NCBI RefSeq assembly: GCF_000383975.1
Contig: NZ_KB913017.1
Location: 3,758,265-3,822,264 of the forward strand
Source of the DNA: Natronorubrum tibetense GA33
GTDB lineage: Archaea > Halobacteriota > Halobacteria > Halobacteriales > Natrialbaceae
Direction: 5' to 3'
DNA: 64,000 nt
Shown here: positions 23,442 through 25,280 of the stretch, in pieces
How positions within the stretch are numbered: position 1 is the stretch's first letter
How the letters are laid out: each line of letters opens with the position of its first letter
Made by a program: the position numbers and the translations under genes
Notes under the pieces: model-generated
What the model was told of the DNA's origin: nothing
What the model saw: the letters and a program-made list of their open reading frames with translations, nothing else
Databases searched by the model: none

Positions 23442-25280
23442 ATGAACCGACGATCACAGCTTACGACGGTATTCGTCGCCCTGATGGTCGCTATCTCGAT
23501 GGTCGGGATGGCGGGCACCGTGGGCGCAAACGGGAGTATGGATTCGGATCGAACAGTGCACACGATGGAGAACGGGGAGGACGTCTACCTCGTCTTCGGC
23601 GTCGACCTCGGCGATCAATCGGTTGAAGAGTTTATTGACGATCACGTGACGGACAACCCTGGTGAACCCGCAGCTGACCAGGACACCGTCTCCGAAGTGA
23701 TCCAGTACCAGGACGTTGGCCAGGTTAACATCAACGAACAAGGTGAAGCCGTCGCCATCGCGATGGACGGCGCCGAGGCCACGGCCATCCAGGAAGTGAA
23801 CCAGCAGAACGCGAACACTCAGGAGGGTGTCGCGTCCGCGGAGAACAACGCAGGTGTCAGCCAGGAGACGACCATCGAAGAAGTCGGTGACGTCTTCGTG
23901 GTCATGGGCGACGAGAACGGACAGGAGTACAACGGCTGGGGCGCCGTCGACGAGGACGGCGAGACGACCGTCAGCCAGGACGCTGAAGCCTCCGTCAGCC
24001 AGGCCCAGGCAGTGAACCAGGCGAACATCGTCCAGAACAACACCGCACTCGCGTTCGCGGAGAACGGTAGCGAGGCGACCGCGGTGCAGATGACCGAGCA
24101 GTCCAACATCAACCTCCAGGAAGGCTACGCAAGCGCGACGAACGTCTACGGCGCCGACCTCGAGGGCGACAAGGACCTCCACGACGAGCACAAGAAGTAC
24201 GACGGTGACAGCACGGCTCCGAGCGCGGAGCAGGACGCTGACGCATCCGTCGAACAGATTCAGGAGATCGAGCAAGTAAACAGCGTCGAGATGGGCAGTG
24301 CGATCGCGATCGCAGTCGGTGAGGACTCCTCCGCGACCGCCGTCCAGATCACCGACCAGACCAACCTGAACGAACAGCTCGGCACCGCCGAAGCCATGAA
24401 CGTCCTGATGGACTCCGCCGGGATGCACGTCGCGACCGCGAGCGCCGACGGCGCAACCGACGTCGTGACCCAGGACGCCGACGAAGAGTACAGTGACACC
24501 GAGCTGAAAGGCGATGAGGCCAGCGACGTTGGCCAGACCGCCGAAGCGAACGTCACGCAGTACCAGAGCGTCGAGCAGGTGAACATCAACCTCGACAGCT
24601 CGGCCCAGGCGATCGCCACGGACGGCAGCACGGCCGAAGCCGTTCAGCTGACCTTCCAGCAGAACGTCAACGCGCAGATCGGTTCCGCCGAAGCGCTGAA
24701 CGTCTTCCTGGAAGACGACGAAGACATCGACTACGACGACGCGAAGGACCAGTACGAGGGTGCCATCAAGACCTCGACGACGACCGCGATGGTCAACGGT
24801 GACGGCCTCGCCGACGCCAACAGCACGACCTTCGACTACGACGGTGACAACGAGCAGCTCAACGACGTCGAGCAGCACTCGAGCGCCGACGTCGAACAGA
24901 GCCAGCAGGTCGCACAGACGAACCTGCAGTCGAACAACGCGCTCGCAGTCGCCGAAGACGCCGGCGACGCCTTCGCGTTCCAGATGACCATGCAGGAGAA
25001 CGAGAACCTCCAGTTCACGTCCGCTGAATCCGCGTCCGTCGCCGAAGGCGCAGTCGGCGACGACGCTGACGAGGACGAGAAGGACCACGACGATGACGAA
25101 AAGAAGAGCGACGACGATGAGAAGACTGACGACGATGACAAGTCCACCATCGAAGCGAGCGACTCCGACGCCGATGACGACGAGCAGAAGAAAGAGGACG
25201 ACTCCGTGCCCGGCTTCGGTGTCGTCGTCGCCCTCGTCGCAGTGCTCGCCGCCGCGATGTTCGCCCGATTCGAACACTGA
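23442..25280 (+). CDS. Secreted curlin-like repeat protein with PGF-CTERM anchor
   Basis: A 612-residue surface protein. A Sec signal peptide (1-29) is cut probably after TVGA. Five units of about 48 residues start near 88, 187, 272, 373 and 486. Each has a first half like QYQSVEQVNINLDSSAQAIA and a second half like AVQLTFQQNVNAQIGSAEAL, with regularly placed Gln, Asn and small Ala/Gly residues. The spacing recalls curlin repeats of bacterial CsgA/CsgB, which stack into amyloid. Acidic spacers of about 40-65 residues separate units. A Asp/Lys/Glu-rich stalk (540-587) leads to SVPGFGVVVALVAVLAAAMF, a PGF-CTERM signal for archaeosortase processing and lipid anchoring. It may form matrix fibres or an adhesin. 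There is no nearby CsgG or CsgE homologue. Confidence 0.85.
   Translation: MNRRSQLTTVFVALMVAISMVGMAGTVGANGSMDSDRTVHTMENGEDVYLVFGVDLGDQSVEEFIDDHVTDNPGEPAADQDTVSEVIQYQDVGQVNINEQGEAVAIAMDGAEATAIQEVNQQNANTQEGVASAENNAGVSQETTIEEVGDVFVVMGDENGQEYNGWGAVDEDGETTVSQDAEASVSQAQAVNQANIVQNNTALAFAENGSEATAVQMTEQSNINLQEGYASATNVYGADLEGDKDLHDEHKKYDGDSTAPSAEQDADASVEQIQEIEQVNSVEMGSAIAIAVGEDSSATAVQITDQTNLNEQLGTAEAMNVLMDSAGMHVATASADGATDVVTQDADEEYSDTELKGDEASDVGQTAEANVTQYQSVEQVNINLDSSAQAIATDGSTAEAVQLTFQQNVNAQIGSAEALNVFLEDDEDIDYDDAKDQYEGAIKTSTTTAMVNGDGLADANSTTFDYDGDNEQLNDVEQHSSADVEQSQQVAQTNLQSNNALAVAEDAGDAFAFQMTMQENENLQFTSAESASVAEGAVGDDADEDEKDHDDDEKKSDDDEKTDDDDKSTIEASDSDADDDEQKKEDDSVPGFGVVVALVAVLAAAMFARFEH

Follow-up and report, generated by a model that had tools for sequence, protein, structure and literature searches.

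A conserved five-unit Gln/Asn-ladder putative surface protein of haloarchaea and its linked single-unit partners

In Natronorubrum tibetense GA33, an open reading frame with an ATG start at 23442..25280 (+) of the 64,000-nucleotide stretch that we analysed (the window) encodes a 612-residue predicted surface protein built from five Gln/Asn-ladder units. It belongs to a real, conserved and undescribed family with a linked partner, a small secreted protein that carries a single copy of the same unit. On balance we favour, by somewhat more than even confidence, a model in which the five-unit protein serves as the scaffold in a surface assembly of two components and co-stacks with the small one-unit proteins. 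Relatives of both the large and the small gene carry no annotation beyond hypothetical or PGF-CTERM protein. Searches of the literature on curlin or curli together with haloarchaea or Natrinema returned no paper on the five-unit family and no named gene set for an archaeal curli-like system; a 2012 survey of curli mentions an archaeal protein, left unnamed, whose repeats are regular and curli-like (PMC3521004).

Results

The repeat unit

The layout of the protein is given in Table 1. Its five units are exactly those that a unit profile, built partly from these same units, finds in the genome (E = 5.9e-22 to 2.5e-18), as the preliminary description of this DNA had proposed; two other genes of the genome gave weak half-unit matches. 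By a count that does not draw on the profile, residues 80-536 hold six copies of the motif QX3QXNXNXQ, compared with 0.001 per shuffle and a maximum of one in 1000 shuffles. Thus, repetition of the unit is far beyond chance. Apart from PGF-CTERM, no model in the family libraries matched the 612-residue protein above its cut-off.

Table 1. Features of the five-unit protein, in window coordinates
Feature	Position	Strand	Basis
Signal peptide, Sec-type, residues 1-30	23442..23531	+	by eye (MNRRSQLTTVFVALMVAISMVGMAGTVGA); hydrophobic start conserved in A1
Conserved N-terminal motif, NGEDVYLVFG...	23568..23645	+	F52 and G53 invariant in 19 homologs
Unit 1, residues 80-138	23679..23855	+	unit alignment, profile
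Spacer 1, conserved GW motif, low confidence in model	23856..23975	+	homolog alignment, AF2
Unit 2, residues 179-237	23976..24152	+	unit alignment, profile
Spacer 2, charged, disordered in model	24153..24230	+	AF2
Unit 3, residues 264-323	24231..24410	+	unit alignment, profile
Spacer 3, disordered in model	24411..24533	+	AF2
Unit 4, residues 365-423, top-scoring copy	24534..24710	+	unit alignment, profile
Spacer 4, disordered in model	24711..24872	+	AF2
Unit 5, residues 478-535	24873..25046	+	unit alignment, profile
Asp/Glu/Lys-rich stalk, seen in PGF-CTERM members	25047..25196	+	homolog comparison
PGF-CTERM sorting signal: VPGFG, membrane helix, R	25197..25268	+	TIGR04126, 36.5 bits

Our alignment of the unit takes 289 copies from 58 large proteins and spans about 57 positions. 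Every second residue is near-fixed as Gln, Asn or Ala, and the intervening residues are variable (mostly 1-2 bits). The near-fixed positions are Q9, Q11, Q15, N17, N19, Q21, A24, A26 and A28, followed by a D-G-S turn and then by A34, A36, Q38, Q42, N44, N46, Q48, G50, A52, A54 and N56. At most of these a single residue accounts for 80-99% of units (67% at G50 and 72% at N56), and the core Gln and Asn are mostly 91-99% fixed, with one Asn at 84%. The two halves of the unit, at positions 9-21 (Q.Q.V.Q.N.N.Q) and 38-48 (Q.S.Q.N.N.Q), repeat at a spacing of about 27 residues, and the Q-x-N-x-N-x-Q block within them is palindromic. The preliminary description had given a 48-residue unit in two halves, close to the conserved length of about 50-57 residues and right as to the halves. 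Its signal peptide also reads as Sec-type by eye, and its acidic spacers are indeed acidic, with Lys and His present as well.

Five specialised units and an optional anchor

Among 292 Halobacteria genomes, the unit is present in 59, of which 56 belong to one family, assigned to the Natrialbaceae through named relatives such as Natronorubrum texcoconense; homologs also occur on large plasmids and in Haladaptataceae, and none of the viral contigs encodes a relative. Most unit-holding genomes have five units and some have 10-13, as expected from two copies of the gene. For every unit, the nearest relative in another protein is the unit of the same number (289/289). In comparisons of units from different positions, core residues still agree to 80% and outward residues to 16%; at matching positions, the outward residues reach 42%. 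Together, this kinship and these identities indicate an old set of five units, each with its own specialisation and none shuffled, and, with the near-constant number of five, argue for a fixed scaffold rather than a variable amyloid array.

The C-terminal sorting signal scores above the cut-offs of both TIGR04126 (36.5 bits; NCBIfam cut-off 24.5) and PF18204 (21.6 bits; cut-off 18.8), and the same genome encodes an archaeosortase (TIGR04125, 329 bits; cut-off 75). A tree of 57 members resolves three forms: 39 proteins stop right after unit 5, 13 carry PGF-CTERM and fall in two separate clades, and a clade of five has a Tat-like RRGYL signal and mostly also a Lys-rich tail. Anchoring is thus optional in the family; the PGF-CTERM anchor described earlier holds for this protein, in signal and enzyme gene, but is not general, given the 39 of 57 members that end without it. 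In the Tat-like relatives (L060, L062, L063, L065 and L066) the signal is seen in four of the five, the start of the L066 protein being uncertain, and the small partner gene is mostly absent.

Single-unit partner proteins

Gene clustering around 48 named scaffold loci revealed a family of small secreted proteins with a conserved Sec signal peptide (MKRxLxLxLTVALIGSLxFMGFAGTAAA) and a single unit each. A small gene lies near the scaffold gene in 43 of 55 loci, always on the opposite strand and in 42 cases divergently upstream; because the loci are mutually related, these counts are not independent events, but the arrangement recurs independently in another family and gene setting. The small genes are mostly ~0.2-2 kb from the scaffold gene, in one to four copies. 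On the Haladaptataceae plasmids, upstream divergent genes of 109-110 aa score 26-56 bits with a unit profile made from Natrialbaceae scaffolds only, and a phosphosulfolactate synthase gene follows the scaffold in place of its usual neighbours.

For 36 of 41 mature small proteins (a set that includes the Tat protein of the N. tibetense genome), the unit profile scored the real sequence higher than each of its 50 shuffles, with up to 45.6 bits, and a profile-profile comparison of small protein and unit gave E = 8.9e-8 over 56 columns. The halves of the unit are in swapped order in some small proteins. With a small-protein profile that leans on the conserved signal peptide, and with G162 discounted (its only match falls within the large gene), the small gene was found at E 1e-6 in 53 of the 59 genomes with the large gene, leaving six scaffold-bearing genomes with none, and in 0 of the 233 without it. 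Haloarchaea had been named in the preliminary description as the place to look for the same unit and for conserved neighbours, and both are there, the unit in 59 genomes and the small gene beside most scaffolds.

The upstream small genes of four loci (L025, L035, L037 and L041) are longer, ~250-320 aa, seemingly with an extra stretch between the unit halves. At L056, in Natrinema hispanicum, the small gene ~2.3 kb upstream of the scaffold looks frameshifted and a nearer copy is intact, which suggests turnover of tandem copies.

In N. tibetense itself, the small gene (G000:C1:3747247-3747672, - strand) lies 34 kb from the scaffold and outside the window, so the single-unit partners went unseen in the preliminary description. 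One of its neighbours here also sits beside it in other species, and downstream of the scaffold the usual genes are retained (window 25.5-31 kb); evidently, the divergent pair was parted by rearrangement or insertion. The encoded protein has swapped unit halves and reaches only 17 bits on the unit profile. Positions 1-23400 of the window fall within the ~34 kb between small gene and scaffold in this lineage. Elsewhere in the genome, a Tat-signal protein (L073, G000:C1:4018239-4018436) carries at its C-terminal end a single unit of swapped order, set behind a very long linker of Glu and Asp; this unit may be an attachment tag.

Predicted fold

We ran AlphaFold2 twice, with 19 and 52 sequences in the alignments. 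The units were predicted to be nearly all strand (pLDDT ~78-92) and the spacers fell below 50, with pTM values of 0.45 and 0.56. A Foldseek search of the PDB with both models returned nothing significant (best E = 0.27, TM ~0.05). All 15 hits listed were to solenoid proteins, alone or within a complex, among them CsgA, FapC (9u4u; E = 4.7), UpaB, LpxA, pectate lyase and an RTX complex; CsgA was the top hit of model 1, at the best E value, and gave E = 5.5 with the second model, non-significant at TM ~0.05. The classes of these hits point weakly to a solenoid. A sequence profile search of the PDB gave no match, and Foldseek against viral models gave nothing useful (best E = 2.6e-3, probability 0.08). 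Judged by its sequence pattern, the palindromic block could also suit an antiparallel long hairpin, which we keep open beside a two-turn solenoid. Of the stacked solenoid that the preliminary description had expected, the models return β-rich units with disordered spacers, and the hits that hint at a solenoid geometry are all non-significant; the Gln/Asn pattern is, as described, curlin-like in style.

Comparison with curlin

The preliminary description had also proposed a family link to curlin. The curlin model PF07012 has no match at E 10 in the N. tibetense genome and none in 52 family members at E 1. The minimal curlin repeat X6QXGX2NX10 occurs 0 times in the 612-residue protein (shuffle mean 0.25) and four times in CsgA, and the X6QX10Q kernel occurs twice, compared with a shuffle mean of 4.5 and seven copies in CsgA. 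The unit profile scored neither CsgA nor CsgB above their own shuffles, and hhalign of the unit profile against curlins gave a probability of 0.4, with 4 of 60 scrambled decoys equally good. Curlin membership was thus rejected on HMM, motif and decoy-controlled profile comparison. The absence of a CsgG-like gene, noted earlier for the neighbourhood, extends to the whole genome (PF03783, no match at E 10).

Genuine curlin-repeat proteins are encoded in two haloarchaea (L121, G198:C1:1329075-1329671; L122, G209:C2:945391-945480). They have N-x-A-x-V-x-Q-D-G-K repeats, a Sec-type signal and, in one, a PF07012 score of 52.4 bits, above the cut-off. Two conserved small genes adjoin these genes.

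Discussion

In the assembly that we propose, the scaffold would be exported by Sec, and each unit would probably form a compact two-turn β-solenoid segment with inward ladders of Gln, Asn and Ala, held between flexible acidic linkers. In the N. tibetense lineage, archaeosortase would cut the PGF-CTERM signal and tie the scaffold to membrane lipid; in most relatives, the scaffold would be released. Because the ladder is common to both proteins, the small one-unit proteins would most probably add on to the scaffold units at their exposed edges, which could give rise to a surface layer or to filaments that serve in the matrix or in adhesion. The location and the matrix role are what we infer, as are the solenoid geometry and the co-stacking. 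Counted against a two-component assembly are the non-adjacent small gene of N. tibetense, with its swapped halves and low score, the six scaffold genomes with no small gene, a pTM of only 0.56 and the non-significant Foldseek matches.

It is very improbable that the protein is a true curlin, that is, a divergent archaeal CsgA homolog. The similar Gln/Asn/Gly style, a second half whose S-x-A-x-A-x-Q resembles curlin motif a (PMC10192328) and the place of CsgA at the head of the model 1 hits speak for it, against the silence of PF07012, a spacing of QX9Q with Asn at both inner sites rather than QX10Q, and profile comparisons in which shuffles and decoys do as well. As far as sequence comparison reaches, that the protein is curli is not supported, whereas that it works like curli is plausible. 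A functional amyloid, in which the small units would make up the bulk of the fibre and the anchored five-unit protein would nucleate it (as CsgB does for CsgA), is a reading that we hold to be rather unlikely; its fibres would be of cross-β type and bind amyloid dyes. The Gln/Asn-ladder unit occurs both in a large, tethered protein and in a small, free one, and the small genes often come in 2-4 copies; but the scaffold has position-specific units, nearly always five of them, where curlin arrays run from 4 to 62 repeats (PMC10192328), and the anchor is missing in most relatives. Biofilms of Haloferax volcanii, for which no amyloid gene is established, stain with Congo red and thioflavin T (PMC4180959), which fits such fibres; Haloferax is of another family, so this dye binding is background only. 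An independent archaeal form of the curli principle, in which lipid-anchored five-unit nucleators would template the growth of Gln/Asn-ladder fibres from secreted one-unit subunits on the haloarchaeal surface and need no secretion channel of their own, is a possible if doubtful reading.

Finally, the scaffold might fold and act by itself, as a long spacer or adhesin; the small proteins would then be separate surface proteins of common origin and under common regulation that do not touch it. Five specialised units, linkers predicted to be disordered and the six scaffold genomes with no detected small gene are compatible with this, but the linkage is kept in another family and gene neighbourhood and the co-occurrence is one-sided (53/59 vs. 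0/233), and we consider it distinctly unlikely. If scaffold and small proteins do co-assemble, as we favour, then the curli principle, in which an anchored and a free protein have one ladder unit in common, came about with neither CsgG nor any detectable descent from curlin. The pair is also a small testable model, with one scaffold and one subunit, and many haloarchaea can be cultured.

Among known systems, substrates of the archaeosortase ArtA (PMC7157517) share with this protein a sorting signal above cut-off and an enzyme gene in the genome, but the signal is found in only 13 of 57 family members, and the stalk here is rich in Asp, Glu and Lys. The Methanospirillum sheath protein SH (PMC10593813) is likewise an archaeal surface protein, amyloid-like with stacked β-arches, but its strands are antiparallel and form giant rings, and no such repeat units or partner protein are described for it. 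The L121 and L122 proteins resemble the five-unit protein in their short Sec-type signal and Gln/Asn repeats and differ in having perfect curlin repeats (N-x-A-x-V-x-Q-x-G); they are separate proteins that the unit profile does not match. FapC is a β-solenoid functional amyloid whose repeats are split by variable linkers, and its export uses the outer membrane, which haloarchaea do not have. Its linker-split repeats are as in the scaffold, and its Foldseek match (9u4u) is non-significant. CsgA and CsgB (PF07012) differ in having a half unit of 23 rather than ~27 residues, and N-x-psi-x-psi-x-Q-x-G in place of QX9Q with Q-x-N-x-N-x-Q; here there are almost always five specialised units, long spacers, no CsgG and, in some members, a lipid anchor, and a sequence relation is undetectable. 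What the two systems have in common is secreted repeats with an alternating pattern and inward Gln/Asn ladders; the strand-arc-strand solenoid of curlin, with about 23 residues per turn, may have a counterpart in the solenoid tentatively predicted here, and the nucleator and subunit of curli, with their one common repeat, resemble the large and small pair of haloarchaea.
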